Assembly (NCBI GenBank): GCA_017512555.1
Contig: JAFWFE010000045.1
Location: 1 to 64,000, forward strand
Length of the DNA stretch: 64,000 nt
DNA from: Solobacterium sp.
GTDB taxonomy: Bacteria > Bacillota_I > Bacilli_A > Erysipelotrichales > Erysipelotrichaceae
Reading direction: 5' to 3'
Part shown: one piece after another, positions 13,834-37,964 of the stretch
How positions within the stretch are numbered: position 1 is the first letter of the stretch
Layout of the letters: each line of letters begins with the position of its first letter
Position numbers and translations under genes: made by a program
The notes under the pieces: generated by a model
What the model was told of the DNA's origin: nothing
Database searches by the model: none
What the model saw: only the letters and a program-made list of their open reading frames with translations

Positions 13834-14920
13834 AATACTGCTTGCCGGCCTGCTGGTCGCAGGTGGATACTCCAACTCCGGTGGCTCCGCATCCGGCAAC
13901 ACGGAAAAAGAAACTGTAGATGCCAAGGAAGTGTATGGCTGCAACGTGATCAACGTCTTCAGTCCGGGTGAATACATCGACGAAGATGTTATCCCGAACT
14001 TTGAAAAGCAGTATAACGCTACCGTAAATTACGACCTGTTTGATTCCAATGAAATGATGTATACAAAGCTTCAGGGCGGCAGTTCTTACGATGTTCTGGT
14101 TCCTTCGGATTATATGATTGAACGTTTATTACAGGAAAACTTCCTGCAGGAACTGGATCTGGATTCCATGGAAAACCAGGATGGATTTGAACGTCAGGCT
14201 ATGGAACTTGCCGGTTCCTTTGACCCGGATCATGTCTATGCGGTTCCTTATTTCTGGGGCTCTGTAGGAATCATTTACAACAAGAATAATGTTGACCCTC
14301 AGGAAGTGGAAGAGCAGGGATGGGAAATCCTCCGGAATACCAAATACAAGGGTAAGATCTTCATGTATGACTCTCAGAGAGATGCCTTCATGATTGCTTT
14401 CAAGGCTCTCGGATACTCCATGAATACAGAGAATGAAGATGAGATCAATAAAGCATTTGAGTGGCTGAAACAGCTGGATGATACCATGGAACCTTCTTAT
14501 GTGACGGATGAAGTCATTGACGCAATGATCAACGGTGAAAAGGATATCGCTGTTGTATATTCCGGTGATGCCGCATATATCGTTTCTGAGAATGAAGATA
14601 TGGCCTTCTCTGAACCTCATCAGGGAACCAACCACTGGATCGATGCCATGGTTATGCCTAAGGATGCGCAGTGTTCCGGTCTGGCCAATGCGTTCATTGA
14701 CTATATCTCCAGCTATGATGTAGCCTATGCGAACTCTGTCGCTGTAGGTTATACTTCCCCGAACGCACAGGTGATGGATGAACTCAGCTCCGAAGATGGT
14801 GATTTCTACGAGAACAACGCTTATCTGCCTCGTGAAGGCTATGACAAGGATGAGATCTTCCACTACAGTGAAGTACTGAGACAGGAACTCGGATTCCTCT
14901 GGAACAAAGTTAAAAACTAA
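13817..14920 (+). CDS. potD: Spermidine/putrescine-binding protein, lipobox cysteine replaced by tyrosine
   Basis: 367 residues, a family 1 periplasmic-type binding protein. NVINVFSPGEYIDEDVIPNFEKQ and the downstream SYDVLVPSDYMIERL are PotD hallmarks. The N-terminal signal (MNKLAKILLAGLLVAGG) should end in Cys, as in other Gram-positive PotD proteins, but codon 18 at 13868-13870 is TAC (Tyr). One base change would give TGC and a usable lipobox ending AGGC. Without the cysteine the protein may be secreted or stay anchored by an uncleaved signal. A terminator follows, closing the regulator-potABCD operon. Confidence 0.92.
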   Translation: MNKLAKILLAGLLVAGGYSNSGGSASGNTEKETVDAKEVYGCNVINVFSPGEYIDEDVIPNFEKQYNATVNYDLFDSNEMMYTKLQGGSSYDVLVPSDYMIERLLQENFLQELDLDSMENQDGFERQAMELAGSFDPDHVYAVPYFWGSVGIIYNKNNVDPQEVEEQGWEILRNTKYKGKIFMYDSQRDAFMIAFKALGYSMNTENEDEINKAFEWLKQLDDTMEPSYVTDEVIDAMINGEKDIAVVYSGDAAYIVSENEDMAFSEPHQGTNHWIDAMVMPKDAQCSGLANAFIDYISSYDVAYANSVAVGYTSPNAQVMDELSSEDGDFYENNAYLPREGYDKDEIFHYSEVLRQELGFLWNKVKN

Positions 14921-14924
14921 TACG

Positions 14925-14949
14925 AAGACCGCTGAGGCGGTCTTTTTTG
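14925..14949 (+). terminator. Terminator of the potABCD operon
   Basis: AAGACCGC pairs with GCGGTCTT around a TGAG loop, followed by a T run. Confidence 0.9.
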
Positions 14950-14980
14950 TTAGAATAAGAGTAGAAAAGAGGAAAAGATA

Positions 14981-15787
14981 ATGAAATCTTGGCGTAAACC
15001 AAATTCGGTTAAACCTCCGTTTGGCAGTACATGGACAGCACCTCCTGCTACAAGAATCTTTGACAATGTGTCATTTATCGGAAATGTCATTGTTGGATGT
15101 TATGTTGTGGAAACAGGGGATGGATTTATCCTGATTGATTGTATGGAACCGGATGACCAGTCCAGGGATACGATTGTACAGGGTATCTCGGATCTTGGTC
15201 TGGATATTCACGATTTAAAAGCGATTTTGATCAGTCATGGTCATTTTGATCACTATGGCCAGGCAGACTGGTTCCGCCGGAACTACGGCTGTAAATTATA
15301 TCTCGGTGAAACCGATACGATCCTGGCAAAGACCGTAGCTCTGGATAAGTGGCCGGTGATCGACTACGATATCGACCGTTATTACAATGACGGCGAAATA
15401 CTAAAATTCGGTGATCTGGAGATTATGACTGTTCTGACTCCGGGACATACGAAAGGGTGTTACTCCTTTATCTTACCTGTCTATGATGAAGGCAGAAAAC
15501 ATATGGCAGGAATGTGGGGTGGTTCCGGATTATTACCGGATTCCGATCCGTATGACTATCGGGCATCTCTGGACAAGTTTATGAAGCTTTGCCGGGAATA
15601 TCATGTGGATGTGGAACTGTGTGCGCATCCTACATTGGATAATGGTCTGGAACGTCATGAAGTGATCCGTAAGATCGTCAATGGTGTTCCCAATCCATTT
15701 GTGATCGGTGAAGAGGGATTTGCGTATTATATGACCCAGTACTATGATCTGGTTGAAGAAACGATGATACGCAGGGGACTGAAATAA
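14981..15787 (+). CDS. MBL-fold metallo-hydrolase
   Basis: 268 residues of the metallo-beta-lactamase fold. The metal-binding HGHFDH motif lies near residue 87, a TPGHTKG histidine near 150, and a further histidine (CAHPTLDN) near 215. The overall shape recalls subclass B3-like hydrolases, but substrate cannot be assigned; most chromosomal members are not resistance enzymes. No signal peptide is seen, so it is cytoplasmic. The ribosome site is GAGGAAAAG. It stands alone between the pot operon and the pseudouridine genes. Confidence 0.82.
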   Translation: MKSWRKPNSVKPPFGSTWTAPPATRIFDNVSFIGNVIVGCYVVETGDGFILIDCMEPDDQSRDTIVQGISDLGLDIHDLKAILISHGHFDHYGQADWFRRNYGCKLYLGETDTILAKTVALDKWPVIDYDIDRYYNDGEILKFGDLEIMTVLTPGHTKGCYSFILPVYDEGRKHMAGMWGGSGLLPDSDPYDYRASLDKFMKLCREYHVDVELCAHPTLDNGLERHEVIRKIVNGVPNPFVIGEEGFAYYMTQYYDLVEETMIRRGLK

Positions 15788-28611: not shown

Positions 28612-28779
28612 TTACTTGTCATTCAGTTTTCTGCGAAGAATAATCAGAGTGACCAGAAGCGCCGCAAGCACCCAGAATAACGGGGAAAGGAAAACTCTTG
28701 TCGTTTTTTCGACAGGACTTTCGATGATGTCCGGGAAGACCGGAAGAGTACTTAACATGATCAGAAGATTCGTAGACAT
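28612..28779 (-). CDS. Small single-pass membrane protein
   Basis: 55 residues with a strong GGAGGTGA ribosome site before the ATG at 28779. A weakly hydrophobic N-terminus precedes a linker and one clear membrane helix at about 30-49 (FLSPLFWVLAALLVTLIIL), with a basic tail. It overlaps the end of the upstream 108-residue membrane gene by 19 bases. Function unknown; probably works with that operon. Confidence 0.7.
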   Translation of the reverse strand: MSTNLLIMLSTLPVFPDIIESPVEKTTRVFLSPLFWVLAALLVTLIILRRKLNDK

Positions 28780-29087
28780 AATTCACCTCCAAGTACAGAC
28801 ACAAGATTTAATATCAGAGAGAAGACCAGGGGATTCCGGATCTCCTTCATGAACTTCTTATAAAACAGATATTCAATGAATACGACCACAGGTTCCAGAA
28901 GAATATAGAACAGGATCTTTGAAAATCCGGGATAGATTCCCAGACAGAACCGGAACAGTAAATTCAGAGCCGGATTTGTCAGGATATTGGCGACTGTGAT
29001 CAGCAGGTAATCCCTGAGCTTTGCGATACCCAGAAAACCTGCAGCGATACATTCCCAGAAGATCGTCAGTAACAATACCGCTATCAT
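28761..29087 (-). CDS. Small polytopic membrane protein
   Basis: 108 residues, almost entirely hydrophobic, with three to four helices (start MIAVLLLTIFWECIAAGF). An AGGAG site precedes the ATG, three bases after the MFS stop codon. It contains NPALN and a conserved-looking E in the third helix (LEPVVVFIEYLFYKKF). Not recognised. It lies between the MFS pseudogene and the 55-residue membrane protein in one operon. Confidence 0.72.
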   Translation of the reverse strand: MIAVLLLTIFWECIAAGFLGIAKLRDYLLITVANILTNPALNLLFRFCLGIYPGFSKILFYILLEPVVVFIEYLFYKKFMKEIRNPLVFSLILNLVSVLGGELCLRIF

Positions 29088-29090
29088 GAA

Positions 29091-30135
29091 CTACTCCTGA
29101 CGTGATCTTGTCAGAGACAATACATACAACAAAATGATCAGAGACAGAATACTGCCTGCCGAGGCGATCCATGAAGAGTGCAGGACTTCAGGGAAGGTTA
29201 TATGTAAATAATACCCCAGAAATAACCCGAAAGTTAATATACCGAACGCAAATCCCGGCATATCCGGCATTTCACGCTTGAGGATATACAAAGTGATGGG
29301 CATGGTCATGTTAAAGGATAACAGGGCGAGGATGCCGAAGATAGGGATACCTGACAAAAGATATGCGGCTGTACTGCACACTAGTGAGATAACGGTGATC
29401 CGGCGGATACCGTACAGGGCAGAGAGTAAACCGCCGATATACTTGCCGGAAGCGACGGCCAGCGTACAAAGCAGGATCTCCACAGTTGTATCTCTCCAGC
29501 TGAAGCCGGTATTCAAACCGATATAGGAACGCAGGATCACAACCACAAAACATCCAGCCATGATCTTCAGTAATCTGTTATCGAATATCGTACGTTCCGG
29601 GTTGTACGTGGTTTCCTGCGGATTGCGGAGAATACGCAGACTGACCAGTACTGTAATTACGCAAAGTGCCAGGATGACCGGCAGCGCCGCAGACAGCAGA
29701 TGTTGTTTACCAAGCAGGGTACCAATCGTCAGTCCAACTACACCTGGTGCCACAAACAAGCCAAGGCCGCTCCCGTGCATTTTACGCGCATCATCTTCAA
29801 AGATGGATATCAATACCGCCCCCGACATGAAACAGCGCATTTCCAACCCCCAGAATCCATATACGCGTATATATACCCAGGATCGTTAATATTACACCCA
29901 GACACATCAGGAACAATGCCGGATACTGATATTTATCTTTGTGCTCAGAAGTCATCAGATCTCCCAGGATACCCAGAGGCATCTGTAAGGCAAAAGCACA
30001 GAAGTTATAGACGATATACATCATTGCGGCAGAATGCAGGGAATACCGCCCGAACATGGCTAACGCACACAGAAAATCAATCATGGCATGCATCAGTGAG
30101 ATATCAATAATCGTACGTGATGGTTTTAGATTCAT
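29091..30135 (-). pseudogene. MFS transporter split by a frameshift
   Basis: Two overlapping minus-strand frames together make one transporter of about 345 residues. The first part, from the ATG at 30135, has about four helices and ends in GNALFHVGGGIDIHL followed by a stop at 29797. The second is open from before 29846 and continues IFEDDARKMHGSGLGLFVAPG through about eight more helices to the stop at 29099. Skipping one base near 29800-29806 restores GGGIDI-IFEDDARK, the expected junction. The original start is uncertain. Either a broken gene or a sequencing error. Confidence 0.78.
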
Positions 30136-30224
30136 TAAGATTAGTTTAAATGATTTAGAAACCTGACGCAATGAATTGACCGCCGGTCAAAATTAAGATA
30201 TAGTATTCACAGGAGGAATTCAAA

Positions 30225-30821
30225 ATGGATTTAACCAAAACATATTTTCTGAGTGGTGAAACAGCCCAGAGTACAGCCTATGCATTGGCAGAATATCTCG
30301 ATGTAGAAAAGAATATGATCACGCAGACAATGCGTACAAGAAACGGGTATACCGTACAGTGTAAGGGAGATGCTTCCGCTGAGTGGACGAAATATCTCGG
30401 TATGGATGTTGCGGTATCTGTAAATCTCACCCAGGACGGAGATCGTCTGGTCGTGAATATCGGTACGGAAAAATGGGCGGAGAAGCTCGGTATGGCAGCT
30501 GTAGGCTCCATCTTCTTCCAGCCGCTGATCCTTACCGCGGGAATCGGCGCACTGCGTCAGGCAGCGCTGCCTACCGATATCTTTAACTTTATCGGTACCT
30601 TCCTCGGCAGTGAACCTATCGTTGAACGTACAATGCCGGAACCTGAAACAGAAAAAAATTTCTGCCCTTACTGCGGTACAGAAAACCGGATCGGCGCGAT
30701 CTTCTGCAAGTCCTGCGGCCAGAAATTAGAAGAAGAGAAAGAAGCTTACTGCCCGGACTGCGGCGGACCTCTGGATGGTGATGAAGCGTTCTGTCCTTAC
30801 TGCGGACGTGCTCTGAAGTAA
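30225..30821 (+). CDS. Protein with two C-terminal zinc ribbons
   Basis: 198 residues with GGAGG before the ATG. Residues of about 1-90 form an unrecognised alpha/beta domain; a hydrophobic segment around 90-110 could be membrane-associated. Two zinc ribbons follow: CPYCGTEN...FCKSCG near 145-165 and YCPDCGGP...FCPYCG near 176-195. Such ribbons often occur in scaffold or regulatory membrane proteins. The stop overlaps the end of the opposite-strand gene by 25 bases. Function unknown. Confidence 0.75.
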   Translation: MDLTKTYFLSGETAQSTAYALAEYLDVEKNMITQTMRTRNGYTVQCKGDASAEWTKYLGMDVAVSVNLTQDGDRLVVNIGTEKWAEKLGMAAVGSIFFQPLILTAGIGALRQAALPTDIFNFIGTFLGSEPIVERTMPEPETEKNFCPYCGTENRIGAIFCKSCGQKLEEEKEAYCPDCGGPLDGDEAFCPYCGRALK

Positions 30822-32455
30822 TACCGGCAAAGGTAAATCAGAAATTCTGCCCAGGTAAGCAGAGAAATATACTGTGTGATCGTCTGTAATCTTGTCCCTG
30901 TATAAGATACATCGATCATACAGTTTTTTTCATCTTCACGGAGCTCAATCTTCACAAGACCGGTGACCGGATCCGGTGTCACTTCTTTCAGTTCCCGGGT
31001 TTCCATGTTTCTTGCGGAATAACCTTTGTAGTATGTCTTGGGAAGAATACAGGTACCGCTTTCCTGGGCATTGAACCGGATATGGTTATAAACAGATTTA
31101 TACTCGGAAAGAGAAGAATTCTCAAATAAGATATCATGGGTCTGGTGACGGAAATGGATCTTGGTATCCGCAATCAGATAATCCGGACTGGATACCTGCA
31201 TGATGTTGTACCAGCTGTCATCTTCCGGATAGTAATACCCGGTATCCGCAATCATTTCCGGCTGTGTATAGTCCATGAATAAACCAAAGTAATCATACTG
31301 TACCCAGATCATCATCAGGCATAACAGGCACTGTACAGCGGTAATTCCGTAAACCAGATTTTTGTGTCCGGACAGAAGATTCTTCAACACAAAGACGGCA
31401 GACAACGTCAGCGGTGCCGCACAGATGATCAAAAATCTCTGCGGGAACTGGATAAAACTCATGGCAGAGAAATACTGCCAGGGGAAGAGGAAGGTAGACA
31501 TCAGTAACAGGATATATCCCAGATTTGTCATCTCATGGATGAAACGATGATCATCCCGGAACAGGAAGGACAAGGCAGGCAGGAACAAGACAAATACACC
31601 GAGATTGGTTACGGTGAGATGGTCATAGTCGTACGGAAGAAGATTGAACAGATCACGGATACGGACAGATTGTTCATGGAGTGTCTGCCCGTTGAAGAAG
31701 TAATTACTGACCCGATAAAGATGAGAAGATAACTGTTCCAGCATCGGCAGGGAGAACCAGCACGTTAATAAGAACGCGGTAAATACCGCCAGGAACAGAT
31801 CCATTAACAGGTTACGATCCCGGAAGATCTCCCTGACATGAATCAGGCAGTACACAACAATCAGAAGGACGATCAGGAAGAAGGAAATATTATGAGACAA
31901 CAACAACCCGGTCAACGCAAGCGTGAGAATATGCCACTTCCCGGAATGTAACACAAACAGATGATATAACCCAAGTAAGATCAGAGGAATAAAGATATAG
32001 GCCAGAGCTTCACCGACAGCCCCGCGGTTATAGGTATTCTGGTAGATATACGTACAAAACAGATAAAACATACTGCCGGTAAAGCACAGTACCGGCTGTT
32101 TTCCCAGAACGGTTTCAATCAGGGAATACATGGCATATGCGGTACAAAAGAAGATCACAAACAAAAAGATCCTGTAGGTCATGATCATCGGCACATGCAG
32201 AATACGCAGGGCGGCCGGAAAATACAGGAAGACGATCGAGTAAAACAACGGGGATCCGTACCCGAAATTATAGTTCTGGAACCAGAAGATCCGCGGGAAG
32301 AAGTCACGGTTATAAATGGCATAGGTCAATGCCTCGATCCGGTTCATATGAAATGTCGTGTCATTGCCGTAAGGCAGGGAACCGTTCAGTAAAGGAAGAC
32401 TTGCGGCAGCTGCCAGTAAGAGACATAACAGTATTTTCTTAAATCGCGGTTTCAT
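30797..32455 (-). CDS. Large multi-pass membrane protein (YfhO/GT-C-like)
   Basis: 552 residues with about 11-12 helices in the first 400 residues and a soluble C-terminal part. The N-terminal loop LPYGNDTTFHMNRIEAL contains the acidic-histidine arrangement seen in GT-C glycosyltransferases and YfhO-like proteins, which use polyprenyl-phosphate sugars outside the membrane. A C-terminal hydrophobic stretch closes the protein. A TATCAT -10-like box is seven bases before the ATG, with no ribosome site. Next to GtrA, a lipid-linked-sugar membrane protein, a role in decorating surface glycans is plausible. Confidence 0.7.
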   Translation of the reverse strand: MKPRFKKILLCLLLAAAASLPLLNGSLPYGNDTTFHMNRIEALTYAIYNRDFFPRIFWFQNYNFGYGSPLFYSIVFLYFPAALRILHVPMIMTYRIFLFVIFFCTAYAMYSLIETVLGKQPVLCFTGSMFYLFCTYIYQNTYNRGAVGEALAYIFIPLILLGLYHLFVLHSGKWHILTLALTGLLLSHNISFFLIVLLIVVYCLIHVREIFRDRNLLMDLFLAVFTAFLLTCWFSLPMLEQLSSHLYRVSNYFFNGQTLHEQSVRIRDLFNLLPYDYDHLTVTNLGVFVLFLPALSFLFRDDHRFIHEMTNLGYILLLMSTFLFPWQYFSAMSFIQFPQRFLIICAAPLTLSAVFVLKNLLSGHKNLVYGITAVQCLLCLMMIWVQYDYFGLFMDYTQPEMIADTGYYYPEDDSWYNIMQVSSPDYLIADTKIHFRHQTHDILFENSSLSEYKSVYNHIRFNAQESGTCILPKTYYKGYSARNMETRELKEVTPDPVTGLVKIELREDEKNCMIDVSYTGTRLQTITQYISLLTWAEFLIYLCRYYFRARPQ

Positions 32456-32565: not shown

Positions 32566-33039
32566 TTATTTCATCAGGTAATACTTTTCCAGAGGAAATA
32601 ACACCAGGAACTGGATCCATCCGGTGATCAGGGATGCGGCGCTCGGTGCTGTAACTGCGTACTTCGGCAGATAGATCTGGATCAGATTGACCAGTACACC
32701 CTGTGCCCACGTGGAAAAGAACAAGAAGAAGATGATCACACACAGATAGATCACGAAATTCTTCTTCGGTGGTTCAGCCTTGAAGGTATACTTCTTGTTC
32801 ACGTAATATCCGGCAGTGTTCGCGGTCAGATTGGCCAGAAAGAAAGGCAGGATATATCCCAGATACAGATGATCTCTGCCAATCGTGTTTTCGTTGAAGA
32901 TCACCCTGAGAACAGCCGGGATCGGCGTCTTCCAGTTTCTCATCAGAAGAAACAGGAGATTGACGGTGAGCAGCTGTAACAGTGTGACACCTGCGGATAC
33001 CGCGGAGAACTTGAGAAATTCTTTCGGACTTTGTTTCAT
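32566..33039 (-). CDS. GtrA family membrane protein
   Basis: 157 residues from the ATG at 33039, about four helices. It contains the family signatures LKFSAVSAGVTLLQLLTVN at the start and ANTAGYYVNKKYTFKAE in the middle (N-x-x-W/YTF element). GtrA proteins move or help move undecaprenyl-phosphate-linked sugars across the membrane. A perfect TATAAT lies seven bases before the ATG with no ribosome site. Divergent from the GT2-MarR gene, 43 bases away. Confidence 0.85.
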   Translation of the reverse strand: MKQSPKEFLKFSAVSAGVTLLQLLTVNLLFLLMRNWKTPIPAVLRVIFNENTIGRDHLYLGYILPFFLANLTANTAGYYVNKKYTFKAEPPKKNFVIYLCVIIFFLFFSTWAQGVLVNLIQIYLPKYAVTAPSAASLITGWIQFLVLFPLEKYYLMK

Positions 33040-33061: not shown

Positions 33062-33071
33062 TGTTTAAACA
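33062..33071. promoter_or_regulatory. Perfect palindrome in the divergent promoter region
   Basis: TGTTTAAACA, a 10-bp palindrome between the two start regions, directly before the ribosome site of the GT2-MarR gene. Candidate operator. Confidence 0.4.
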
Positions 33072-33082
33072 GAGGAGTAAAT

Positions 33083-34384
33083 ATGGTAAAAGTGAGTATT
33101 ATTGTGCCGGTATACAATGCGGAAGACGTGCTTCCCCGGTGTATCGACAGTATTATTAATCAGGAATACAAGGATTTTGAACTATTACTGATCAACGACG
33201 GAAGTAAAGATGAATCCGGAAACATATGTGATGCCTATGCCCGGAAAGATCCCCGGATCCGTGTATTCCATAAGGAGAAAACAGGTGTATCCGATACCCG
33301 GAATCTTGGCATTGATGAAGCACAGGGTGAGTATATCCAGTTCCTGGACGCGGATGACTGGATCACCCCGGATTCCACAAAAGAACTGGTAAGAGCGATG
33401 GAAGCGTATCAGCCGCAGCTGGTCATTGCGGACTTCTACCGTGTCGTAGGCAATAATATCGCCAGAAAGGGAAGTATTTTGAGTTCGGAAGTACTTACCC
33501 AGAAAGAATTCGCGGAATGTATGATGGAAAGTCCTGCGGATTATTATTACGGGGTGATCTGGAATAAACTGTACCGGAGGGATATCCTGGACAAGTTTCA
33601 TCTGCGCATGGATAAGTCACTGAGTTTCTGCGAAGATTTCGTGTTCAATCTGGAGTATTATCTCCACTGTGATACGATTTATCCTTTACAGGTACCGGTA
33701 TATTACTACTACAAAACAGATGGATCCCTGGTGGCTCAGAACCTGCGTCTGGATAAGCTTGTGGCAATGAAGACGAGTATTTACCAGTACTACGACAACT
33801 TCTTCAAGCATATCCTGGATGAAGAACGGTATGAACAGGAACGTCTGTCCATTGCCAGATTCCTGGTCAGTGCGGCAACAGATGACATGGCAATCCCGCT
33901 GTTTCCGGGTACACGTAAGCTTGGTGAAGAGAGCGTACAGGCTTACTTCAGTGAAGAGGGAGAAATTAACCCTATATCCCAGGCGTATTACCTGAATAAG
34001 ATCTTTGACCGGTATCTCAATACAATAGCGATGAAATATGATCTGGAATTAAGAGATGTACGTGTATTCTACGCGCTGAGGAAAGCCGGGGGAACAAAAG
34101 ATGCCCGGGATATCGCTGACTATACGGGTATTCCGCAGGCGATGGTCTTCCTGTCCCTGCAGAAACTGGCTATGCGTGGTTTGGCAAAAGTACGTTTTGA
34201 TTTATCCAAGGCAGAGCTGGAGATCACCGATGATTCCAAAGCGCTATGTGATGAACTGGATGTTGCTGCACATGATCTGGAGAATGCCTGCACAAAAGGA
34301 TTCAGCGAAGAAGAAATAAAGCTGATGAAACAGTTTGAGGCCAGGGTCAGTAAAAACCTGAAGGACGATATTCAGACAATATGA
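33083..34384 (+). CDS. GT2 glycosyltransferase fused to a MarR-like winged-helix domain
   Basis: 433 residues. Residues 1-270 are a family 2 glycosyltransferase: VSIIVPVYNAEDVLPRC, LINDGSKDESG near 38, LDADDW near 88 and W-N-K-L-Y at 160. Residues 296-428 read as a MarR-type winged helix: a long first helix, ADYTGIPQAMVFLSLQKLAMRGL as HTH and recognition helix (346-367), a wing (AKVRFDLSKAELEIT) and C-terminal dimerisation helices with the GFSEEEIKLMKQF pattern. There is no frameshift or stop between them. AGAGGAG precedes the ATG. The stop overlaps the GH3 start (ATGA). It may be a sugar transferase that also regulates its locus. Confidence 0.85.
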   Translation: MVKVSIIVPVYNAEDVLPRCIDSIINQEYKDFELLLINDGSKDESGNICDAYARKDPRIRVFHKEKTGVSDTRNLGIDEAQGEYIQFLDADDWITPDSTKELVRAMEAYQPQLVIADFYRVVGNNIARKGSILSSEVLTQKEFAECMMESPADYYYGVIWNKLYRRDILDKFHLRMDKSLSFCEDFVFNLEYYLHCDTIYPLQVPVYYYYKTDGSLVAQNLRLDKLVAMKTSIYQYYDNFFKHILDEERYEQERLSIARFLVSAATDDMAIPLFPGTRKLGEESVQAYFSEEGEINPISQAYYLNKIFDRYLNTIAMKYDLELRDVRVFYALRKAGGTKDARDIADYTGIPQAMVFLSLQKLAMRGLAKVRFDLSKAELEITDDSKALCDELDVAAHDLENACTKGFSEEEIKLMKQFEARVSKNLKDDIQTI

Positions 34385-36753
34385 CAGAAATAGAGGAACT
34401 GACAAGAAGAGAAAAAGCGGAAATGTTTACCGGTGCGGATAACTGGCATACAGTTGGTGTACCGGAAAAGAATATCCGTTCTGTGAAGATGGCAGATGGG
34501 CCAAGCGGGCTGAGAATAGAGAAGACTACAGGATTTGGCTTTAATGAGTCTCACGAGGCTGTCGCGTATCCTACAGCTTCCGCTCTTGCCTGTTCCTTTG
34601 ATCGTGATCTTTTATATGAACTGGGAGAGATGCTGGCAGAGGATTGCCGGAAAGATGGTGTGGATATTCTGCTGGGTCCCGGAGTGAACCACAAGCGTAG
34701 TCCCTTATGCGGAAGAAACTTTGAGTATTACTCTGAAGATCCGATTTTATCCGGAGAACTGGCATCTGCCTATGTCAATGGTTTACAGAGTCATGGCATA
34801 GGAGCCTCTCTCAAGCATTTTGCGGGCAATTCTCGTGAGATGGGTAGATTGGTCTCCGACAGTATTATCGATGAAAGAACGCTGTATGAGATCTATCTGA
34901 GGCAGTTTGAGCGTGTGATCCGGAAGGCAAAGCCATGGACGATCATGAATGCCTATAATCTGCTGAACGGAGTATATTGTACGGAAAGCAGTACGCTGAT
35001 GGATACTGCCAGAAAGAAGTGGGGCTTTGACGGTGTGTTTATTTCGGACTGGGGTGCGGTAAGTGATCCTGTACAGGCATTGAAAGGTGGTCTGAACCTG
35101 CAGATGCCGGGAGGAGATCACGGTACCTCAGATGTCCTGATCAAGGCATGTGAGCAGGAGGAAGAACTGTCACACAAGCTGGATGAAAGCACAAGATACC
35201 TGCTGAATCTGGAAAAGAAATGCCAGTCTTTGCCGATACAGGAGTATTCCAAAGAGAAACATCGGCAGTTTGCCCGTAAAGCCGCTGCCGAAAGCGCGGT
35301 ATTGCTGAAGAATGAGAATCATCGTTTACCGTTATCCAGAGAGAAGAATATCCCGGTGATCGGTGCCATGGCCAGACATCCAAGGTTCCAGGGGGCAGGA
35401 TCCAGCAAAGTTAATTCACCGGCAGATAATATCCTGGAAGCTCTGCAGGAGAAAGGATGTACCGTCCGTTATTGTCAGGGATATCACCTTGCGATAGAGG
35501 AGACAGACCCTATACTCTACGAAGAAGCCCTGTTCCATGCCCGTCAGGCGGACCAGATTCTCTTTGTCGGAGGATTGCCGGAAGGAAAAGAATCGGAAGG
35601 CTATGACCGAAGGGATCTGGATCTGCCGCAGTGTCAGAACGAACTGCTTAAGGCACTGACCAATATGCGTAAGGATATCGCTGTGGTATTGCAGTGTGGT
35701 TCACCGGTGGTGATGCCGTGGGCAGAGAATGTGGAAGGGATACTTCTGATGTATCTGTCCGGTTGTATGGGAGGCCATGCGGCGGCGGATCTTCTGCTGG
35801 GGGACAGGAATCCCTCCGGCAAACTTGCGGAGACTTTCCCCCTCAAATTAAGCGATACGCCATGTTATGCCTGGTACCACGATGATTTGTACCGCTCTTA
35901 CTACAAGGAAACAATCTTTACCGGATATCGCTATTATTCCAGCTTTGCTGTGCCGGTATTATTCCCGTTTGGACATGGTCTGAGTTATACGAAATTCTCA
36001 TATGAGGATCTGTGTATTACTGAGACAGAGGGACAATATCATCTGTCCTTGTCGGTAACCAATTGCGGGGATATGCCGGGAAGGGAAGTTATTCAGTGTT
36101 ATACCGGCATGAAAAACAGTAAGATTGCCCGTCCGGACAAGGAATTGAAAGCTTTTACAAGTGTAGAATTAGATTCCGGTGAAACCAGACAGGTTGATTT
36201 GACGGTTGAGAAGAAAGATTTATGTTATTTTGATGTCCGCAGACATGACTGGGTGATAGAGGCGGGAGAGTATACATTCTTTGTTGGATCTTCTTCGGAA
36301 GATATCCGTCTTCAGGATTCTCTGTACGTGGAAGGTGAAACAGATCCCTGCAGCACAATAAAAAAAGAGATATATCACCGCTCCAACGGTATCTTAGATA
36401 TCTCTGAGGAAGATTATCTTCATATTATCGGTAAATTATCTGATACAGAACACCAGGTCTATCCATATCACCGGAATACGACCATTACGGATCTGGAGGC
36501 TACGCTGCTTGGCCGTCTGATCCACCGGGAGATCCGCCGTCTGATCCGTAAGGATACGTTTAAGGATGTGTCTGGTTCGATGGTCTTTGAATCTCCGATC
36601 CGGATGATGTTCATGGCTTCCAGCCGGATTACCTGGGATACGCTTGACCAGGTGATCTATACTCTGAACGGCCATTATTTCGGCATGTTCCGGAGGATTT
36701 ATAAAACGCTGAAAAAAAAGCGGAAACTGATCAGATTCCGCCGTAGTGATTGA
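34381..36753 (+). CDS. Glycoside hydrolase family 3 (beta-glucosidase-like)
   Basis: 790 residues without a signal peptide, so cytoplasmic. The GH3 TIM-barrel comes first, with KHFAGN near 145 and the nucleophile Asp223 in GVFISDWGA. The alpha/beta sandwich domain follows (AESAVLLKNE near 310), then a fibronectin-III-like domain (about 530-640). About 110 extra C-terminal residues form a basic helical tail not usual in GH3. It would release terminal beta-linked glucose or a related sugar from imported oligosaccharides. It is coupled to the GT2-MarR gene by a four-base overlap, so the two are co-expressed. It overlaps the convergent lipoprotein gene by 23 bases. Confidence 0.92.
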   Translation: MTEIEELTRREKAEMFTGADNWHTVGVPEKNIRSVKMADGPSGLRIEKTTGFGFNESHEAVAYPTASALACSFDRDLLYELGEMLAEDCRKDGVDILLGPGVNHKRSPLCGRNFEYYSEDPILSGELASAYVNGLQSHGIGASLKHFAGNSREMGRLVSDSIIDERTLYEIYLRQFERVIRKAKPWTIMNAYNLLNGVYCTESSTLMDTARKKWGFDGVFISDWGAVSDPVQALKGGLNLQMPGGDHGTSDVLIKACEQEEELSHKLDESTRYLLNLEKKCQSLPIQEYSKEKHRQFARKAAAESAVLLKNENHRLPLSREKNIPVIGAMARHPRFQGAGSSKVNSPADNILEALQEKGCTVRYCQGYHLAIEETDPILYEEALFHARQADQILFVGGLPEGKESEGYDRRDLDLPQCQNELLKALTNMRKDIAVVLQCGSPVVMPWAENVEGILLMYLSGCMGGHAAADLLLGDRNPSGKLAETFPLKLSDTPCYAWYHDDLYRSYYKETIFTGYRYYSSFAVPVLFPFGHGLSYTKFSYEDLCITETEGQYHLSLSVTNCGDMPGREVIQCYTGMKNSKIARPDKELKAFTSVELDSGETRQVDLTVEKKDLCYFDVRRHDWVIEAGEYTFFVGSSSEDIRLQDSLYVEGETDPCSTIKKEIYHRSNGILDISEEDYLHIIGKLSDTEHQVYPYHRNTTITDLEATLLGRLIHREIRRLIRKDTFKDVSGSMVFESPIRMMFMASSRITWDTLDQVIYTLNGHYFGMFRRIYKTLKKKRKLIRFRRSD

Positions 36754-37930
36754 TCATACGTTCCAGTTCACGCCAGGTAACCGGAAGCGCGTAGCTGTGC
36801 GCAGGCGCAGACAGTGGCACAAAGAGAATATCCTGATAGATCTCCTGGAATACACCTGTACTGATATCATCAACTGAGTATGCCTTGAACTGTGCCCGTG
36901 TATAGTCGTCGTAGAAGAGGTAATAGTCTTCTCCCATGAGGTTCTTCATGATCATCGGTCCTTCACTTTGATGACCGGAGAAAGGCTCAGAGAAGTTCGT
37001 AAAGTCATGCCATCCATGTTCGGAAGTTCCCCGGAATAACTGTGAATATTCCTGCATCGGGGAGCGTTCATCCTTGAGGATGATCGTATATTTATCTCCT
37101 TGTTTACAGATCGTACCGTCAATGACAGGGAACCCTGTATCGATCAGTTTTTCCGGAGGATCAAACGTAATCAGATCACCGGTGAGGTTATAATACATGC
37201 CGGTATCTTCCACGCTGGACCAGTAGACAACATATTCATCTAATGTACGGTCATAGAAGCCTTCCGGTGCCCATGCCTGCTTACCGCTGAGTTTCAGGGT
37301 ATCCGAGGAATAGTTCACCTTTGCCAGACGTTCACCGGTAAAGGACAGAAGATCCGTACTGTCATAGACATAAATACTGTCAGTATCATATCCCTGGGTG
37401 GCGATGACGGCGAAACTGCCGTCTTTTTTACGTATGAGAGAAGGATCACGGAAACGCTTTGTGCCGATGGAAGGGGATAAGACAGCCTGATCACTGTTCA
37501 GACGGAACCAGTAGACACTGTCATAGGTATACGCAAGCTTCAGGTTCTCATCGGTTTCATTCGTGAAATACGAGATCACATAAGCGACATATTCATCCAG
37601 TAATAACAGGTGATCAAACGTATAGGATTGACCGCTGACTTCGGCAGAGAGTGTGACAGGTTCATATTCCGCGGAAGCTTCAGTCTTATGAATCGTATGA
37701 CCGTCAAGTTCCGCATTTCCGGAATGGATCGTCCAGGATACAGCCGTACCGTCATGAAGTTTCTCCGGGAGAAGATCACCATCATTGATAAAGGCATCCA
37801 GGGTCTGGTCAAGCTCGGTATATACAGGATCGGTATCCGGTATAGGGGAGGAAGAAACCACAGGCTCCTGTTTCTGTGTACATCCTGTAAGCAGTATTCC
37901 GGCCAGACATGTAAGTAATAATTTTCGCAT
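36731..37930 (-). CDS. GH43-like beta-propeller lipoprotein
   Basis: 399 residues from the ATG at 37930. Signal peptide with lipobox GILLTGC. Residues of about 50-110 form a small beta domain (Ig-like, VSWTIHSGNAELDGHTI). The remainder has the repeated blade pattern of a five-bladed propeller: KRFRDPSLIRKKDGSFAVIAT, QAWAPEGFYDRTLDEYVVYWS, PVIDGTICKQGDKYTIIL and SEGPMIMKNL. The Asp in RDPS and the Glu residues in APEG and SEGP are in the positions used by GH43 arabinosidases/xylosidases. It probably acts on plant or surface glycans outside the cell; substrate unknown. Confidence 0.8.
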   Translation of the reverse strand: MRKLLLTCLAGILLTGCTQKQEPVVSSSPIPDTDPVYTELDQTLDAFINDGDLLPEKLHDGTAVSWTIHSGNAELDGHTIHKTEASAEYEPVTLSAEVSGQSYTFDHLLLLDEYVAYVISYFTNETDENLKLAYTYDSVYWFRLNSDQAVLSPSIGTKRFRDPSLIRKKDGSFAVIATQGYDTDSIYVYDSTDLLSFTGERLAKVNYSSDTLKLSGKQAWAPEGFYDRTLDEYVVYWSSVEDTGMYYNLTGDLITFDPPEKLIDTGFPVIDGTICKQGDKYTIILKDERSPMQEYSQLFRGTSEHGWHDFTNFSEPFSGHQSEGPMIMKNLMGEDYYLFYDDYTRAQFKAYSVDDISTGVFQEIYQDILFVPLSAPAHSYALPVTWRELERMINHYGGI

Positions 37931-37936
37931 GCGTCT

Positions 37937-37942
37937 ATTATA
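37937..37942 (-). promoter_or_regulatory. -10 box of a leaderless GH43-like lipoprotein gene
   Basis: A perfect TATAAT with exactly six bases to the ATG at 37930, so the predicted +1 is the A of the start codon. Confidence 0.6.
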
Positions 37943-37964
37943 TATGATTTTTCGTATATTCATA

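Follow-up and report, generated by a model that had tools for sequence, protein, structure and literature searches.

A family 2 glycosyltransferase with a predicted MarR-fold C-terminal domain and an eroded DNA-reading surface in an Erysipelotrichaceae lineage

The presence of an enzyme and a DNA-binding-type fold in a single chain is familiar from the trigger enzymes PutA and BirA. Transcription factors of the MarR/SlyA type have a fold of six helices and a wing, and MarR homodimers pair through helices 1, 5 and 6. Among the glycosyltransferases of family 2 (GT2, PF00535), those of the WaaH(YibD)/TarP/TarS type combine a GT-A fold with DxD and ED motifs, and TarS and TarP oligomerize through C-terminal modules; to our knowledge, the C-terminal domains of the teichoic-acid glycosyltransferases TarS, TarP and RmlT are not MarR-like. 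Finally, winged helix-turn-helix (wHTH)-type peptide-binding domains, the RiPP recognition elements (RREs), have been reported as fusions to PF00535 enzymes (PMC12710340). The protein described here touches each of these. It shares with PutA and BirA the joining of an enzyme to a DNA-binding-type fold, but its sequence gives no sign of DNA binding in the lineage studied; it shares the GT-A fold and its motifs with the WaaH/TarP/TarS-type enzymes, but differs from them by its MarR-fold C-terminus; and, like the RRE-fused glycosyltransferases, it couples a PF00535 enzyme to a winged-helix-type appendage, albeit one of MarR rather than RRE topology.

The gene lies in a 64,000-nucleotide stretch of a Solobacterium contig (hereafter the window) and is one uninterrupted open reading frame (ORF) of 433 residues (Table 1), as the sequence-only reading of this DNA had held. 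An assembly or sequencing join as the origin of the fusion can be dismissed, since the closest relative is of the same length and 95% identical, and the fusion is conserved across many genomes. The surroundings likewise agree with that reading, which had noted a divergent gtrA and a coupled GH3 gene: the gtrA start codon (ATG at 33039, minus strand) is 43 bp from the fusion gene, and the GH3 start overlaps the fusion-gene stop by 4 bp (ATGA, 34381–34384). Of 33 Erysipelotrichaceae loci, 24 have a GH3 gene immediately after the fusion gene, the two ends overlapping in most cases; none of the loci from the other taxa sampled has this arrangement. A GtrA-like gene sits directly upstream in seven further loci, where it is co-directional with the fusion gene, as against divergent in the window. 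Among the loci sampled outside the Erysipelotrichaceae we found no recurrent or conserved neighbor. As GtcA, a GtrA-type protein, acts together with glycosyltransferases where teichoic acids are glycosylated by three-component systems (PMC7389260, PMC5836110), an envelope-glycan role for the fusion protein is plausible by analogy.

Other minus-strand ORFs of this region deserve mention in their own right. An MFS-like transporter (28761–30171) is seemingly split across overlapping frames (29797–30171, 29091–29846 and 28761–29087), which hints at a frameshift in the gene or a mistake of assembly; a 552-residue multi-spanning membrane protein beside gtrA (30797–32455) resembles GT-C/YfhO-type glycosyltransferases by eye and returned no match in searches of Pfam and NCBIfam; and a lipoprotein-like ORF with a partial GH32-type match (36731–37963) is convergent with the GH3 gene.

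Table 1. Features of the fusion gene and its neighborhood, in window coordinates
Feature	Position	Strand	Basis
GtrA-like membrane protein, divergent from fusion gene	32566..33039	-	PF04138 5.9e-6
TGTTTAAACA, perfect 10-bp palindrome	33062..33071	.	Just upstream of ribosome-binding site
GT2-MarR fusion gene	33083..34384	+	One ORF; full-length orthologues similar in length
GT2 (GT-A) catalytic domain, residues about 1-265	33083..33877	+	PF00535; invariant motifs; Foldseek; GT-only orthologues stop near here
Linker, residues about 266-295	33878..33967	+	Conserved D267, PGTKKLGEE-type segment (residues 275-283)
Predicted MarR-fold domain, residues 297-431 (helices 1-6 and beta-hairpin wing)	33971..34375	+	AlphaFold2, Foldseek, VIA-align, profile matches
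Apparently degenerate DNA-reading surface: recognition helix (residues 351-364) and wing (368-382)	34133..34228	+	Low conservation, wing arginines lost, exposed hydrophobics
GH3 glycoside hydrolase, 790 aa	34381..36753	+	PF00933/PF01915/PF14310

The N-terminal region is a GT2 domain (PF00535, residues 5–171, E = 4e-40, 137.9 bits against a cut-off of 23.3), and the claim that it is complete with its motifs intact is borne out by 60 homologues, in which the nucleotide-binding DGS (D39-G40-S41) and DxD (D89/D91/D92/W93) motifs and the catalytic acidic ED motif (E184-D185) are invariant. Foldseek places glycosyltransferases of the TarS/TarP/RmlT type among its closest solved folds, and the whole protein falls under every equivalog cut-off of NCBIfam. 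The domain looks like an active cytoplasmic enzyme, probably one that acts on an envelope or surface glycan. The linker that follows is itself strongly constrained (D267 in 66, and G281 and E283 each in 63, of 66 sequences); D267 and the PGTKKLGEE-type motif (residues 266–283; 33878–33931) show stronger conservation than the MarR domain.

Within the limits of prediction, the C-terminal segment (the tail) is settled as a complete MarR fold. Its predicted elements follow the MarR order: helices at residues 297–318, 323–334, 341–348 and 352–364, strands at 368–372 and 377–381, and helices at 383–403 and 409–431. AlphaFold2 modeled the whole chain with a pLDDT of 90.5 and a pTM of 0.90 (alignment of 60 homologues) and the tail alone with a pLDDT of 92.1. 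Searched with the tail, Foldseek returned MarR-family structures as all of its top 50 PDB matches; VIA-align superimposed it on MarR structures 3bpx and 3s2w with a Z-score of 15.2 over 135–144 residues; and a profile of 30 C-termini recovered PDB MarR chains at E = 6e-8, nearly all of its 32 matches being MarR-type. These three results dispose of a chance or false helix-turn-helix assignment. Single-sequence signals are fainter: a TrmB wHTH match (PF01978, residues 318–370, E = 3.3e-6) is above its cut-off, and the window protein does not reach the curated Pfam cut-offs for MarR or MarR_2 (MarR_2 at 0.003, 18.1 bits against 27), though the tails of some relatives match MarR_2 at 1.3e-8 and MarR at 4.4e-8. 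In NCBIfam, the sole match covering most of the segment is that to TIGR04472, a model for the MarR protein in radical-SAM mobile pairs (residues 324–428, 6e-6, far below cut-off). Thus, the MarR assignment, previously made by pattern, now has profile searches, AlphaFold2, Foldseek and VIA-align in agreement behind it, and the model displays the MarR winged helix, the lack of which was to count against it. Since two floating domains would rarely yield a pTM as high as 0.90, the model also suggests a defined packing, with the tail sitting firmly on the enzyme. Hence, while the tail shares the six-helix and wing fold of the MarR/SlyA regulators (profile E about 1e-7, Z about 15), it differs from them in its position behind an enzyme and in the erosion of the DNA-reading helix and wing in the window's clade.

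Across 13 orthologue pairs the tail has dN/dS values of 0.05–0.22, usually somewhat above that of the GT domain; by this measure, it is under purifying selection and hence functional rather than decaying. Its best-conserved positions (Y302, K306, L312, A316, L321, D325, A395 and D398) fall in helices 1 and 5 and at the beginning of helix 2, not in the wing or the exposed part of helix 4. Compared with the MarR dimer face (PMC3737563), they largely coincide with it, which favors a dimerization and allosteric role. The high conservation of helices 1 and 5 and the confident single arrangement of domains in the model could also be read as signs of a module that is purely structural, pairing the chains with no regulatory input, for which the oligomerizing C-terminal modules of TarS and TarP would offer a parallel. 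We regard this as doubtful: the entire wHTH has long been retained, though helices 1, 5 and 6 would suffice for a dimer, and orthologues consisting of the GT domain alone do without the tail.

The DNA-reading surface presents a different picture. SCO3205 contacts DNA through Arg, Ser and His residues of the recognition helix and an Asp-x-Arg of the wing (PMC3737563). In the Erysipelotrichaceae fusions, the recognition helix and the wing rank near the bottom of the tail's segments in conservation, with pairwise identities of 0.30 for the N-terminal half of the helix and 0.16 for the wing, as against 0.40 for helix 1 and 0.66 for the GT domain. The opposite holds in the one standalone MarR family used as a control, an OhrR-like family from the same genomes, where that half-helix is the best-conserved segment (0.79) and the wing stands at 0.49. 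The wing of the window protein (FDLSKAELEIT) lacks the (D/N)xR motif found in all five other MarR domains of the genome that were compared (locus L103 left out), and its sequence has neither the polar or basic recognition helix nor the wing DxR expected of a DNA binder. The conservation of the buried helix-4 positions Q360 and L362 is expected, because the fold must be kept. At the exposed helix-4 position 356, a large hydrophobic residue occurs in 84% of the Erysipelotrichaceae proteins as against 0% of an Oscillospiraceae/Lachnospiraceae branch, and the mean number of K/R residues at the wing tip is 0.66 in the former as against 3.93 in the latter, where a REKRLEI-type wing is often kept. 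The Bifidobacterium branch has a canonical-looking ATR helix; members of both these branches thus retain more DNA-binding-like helices or wings. The exposed hydrophobic helix 4 might suggest that the tail recognizes a peptide or protein substrate, analogous to the RREs fused to GT2 enzymes. This appears very improbable, for the RRE is defined by a β3-α3 order (PMC12710340), and the tail instead has MarR topology, with helices preceding a two-strand wing and helices 5 and 6 present; nor did a precursor peptide gene happen to come to notice.

The sequence-only reading had gone further, in proposing that the fusion directly regulates its own glycan locus in the manner of a trigger enzyme; the MarR domain would bind an operator there, and its hold on that operator would change once the GT2 domain had taken up a sugar nucleotide or an acceptor. 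The predicted true MarR fold, the TrmB/MarR_2 sequence signal, the divergent-promoter geometry with gtrA, the coupling to GH3 and the K/R-rich wing of the Oscillospiraceae/Lachnospiraceae-type members all speak for it. On the other side are the weakly conserved surface, with its lost wing arginines and exposed hydrophobic helix, the non-divergent gtrA of the other loci that carry this gene, and the upstream DNA. The sole 10-bp palindrome between gtrA and the fusion gene, TGTTTAAACA, is rejected as an operator, being absent from the 95%-identical nearest relative and not conserved in loci L021 and L002. In 31 Erysipelotrichaceae loci, no upstream dyad is widely shared: the top dyads, slightly above shuffled sequences, occur in only 2–4 loci, and the strongest individual palindromes resemble terminator hairpins. 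Fast-evolving recognition helices could alternatively reflect lineage-specific operators. Nevertheless, with the surface eroded, the wing motif lost and no shared upstream dyad, the tail of the window lineage most likely binds no specific operator. The earlier interpretation thus stands as regards the gene context, the intactness of the GT2 domain and the MarR fold; for this lineage, however, the evidence does not support a protein that directly regulates its own locus, and we judge such a role unlikely here.

The architecture is not confined to a single locus. Full-length relatives with 43–95% identity occur in Erysipelotrichaceae, Lachnospiraceae, Oscillospiraceae, Bifidobacteriaceae and Olsenella, and most of the 80 genome loci retrieved from these five taxa carry the fusion. 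Within the window's genus, 16 of the 24 genomes searched, its own included, have one. It is uncommon in even samples: 2 of 392 genomes of the window's phylum, 2 of 391 of the class of the Oscillospiraceae member and 3 of 296 of the phylum of the Bifidobacterium member. The fusion proteins cluster by family on the tree. GT-only orthologues (267–312 residues) were found on one Subdoligranulum plasmid, the single relative from the plasmid search, and in four further genomes; their existence suggests that the tail may be dispensable for catalysis. Their GT domains are placed close to the base of the fused clade in a weakly resolved branching, a placement compatible with a single fusion event. A viral origin is discounted, the scan of viral contigs having returned only relatives of the GT2 part. 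Our search of open-licence papers found no published description of a GT2-MarR fusion, and the architecture appears undescribed in that literature. Separately, the same genome encodes a second enzyme-MarR fusion (contig C62, around 14580–15730, locus L106), a 380-residue ORF in which a radical-SAM activase-like domain is joined to a MarR domain whose NDRRIK wing is intact.

Taking these observations together, we favor as fairly probable that the MarR fold has been reused for dimerization or for allosteric or partner control of the glycosyltransferase, with no specific operator bound in the window lineage. Briefly, we advance the following plausible mechanism. In the distant past, a GT2 enzyme would have acquired its C-terminal MarR-fold module from a transcription factor. 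Helices 1, 5 and 6 might then pair two GT domains, and the MarR pocket or the former recognition helix might take up a ligand or a protein contact. Glycan transfer would thereby respond to a signal.

In broader terms, several families of Firmicutes and Actinobacteria from gut and mouth share the GT2-MarR architecture. The case cautions that a helix-turn-helix fold is by itself insufficient ground for inferring regulation: going by sequence, a regulatory role is unlikely for the window protein and possible for other branches of the family. We tentatively entertain that at least some members of the family, namely those of the Oscillospiraceae/Lachnospiraceae branch, with its K/R-rich wing, and the Bifidobacterium branch, with its ATR helix, are true one-piece glycosyltransferase/transcription factors that sense sugar-nucleotide or acceptor supply and regulate glycan genes, in which case the Erysipelotrichaceae would illustrate a stepwise passage from transcription factor to enzyme-control domain. 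The family offers a natural series, from the DNA-binding-like wing of the Oscillospiraceae/Lachnospiraceae to the eroded wing of the window lineage, alongside GT-only relatives, which lets one ask how a transcription-factor fold turns into part of an enzyme.
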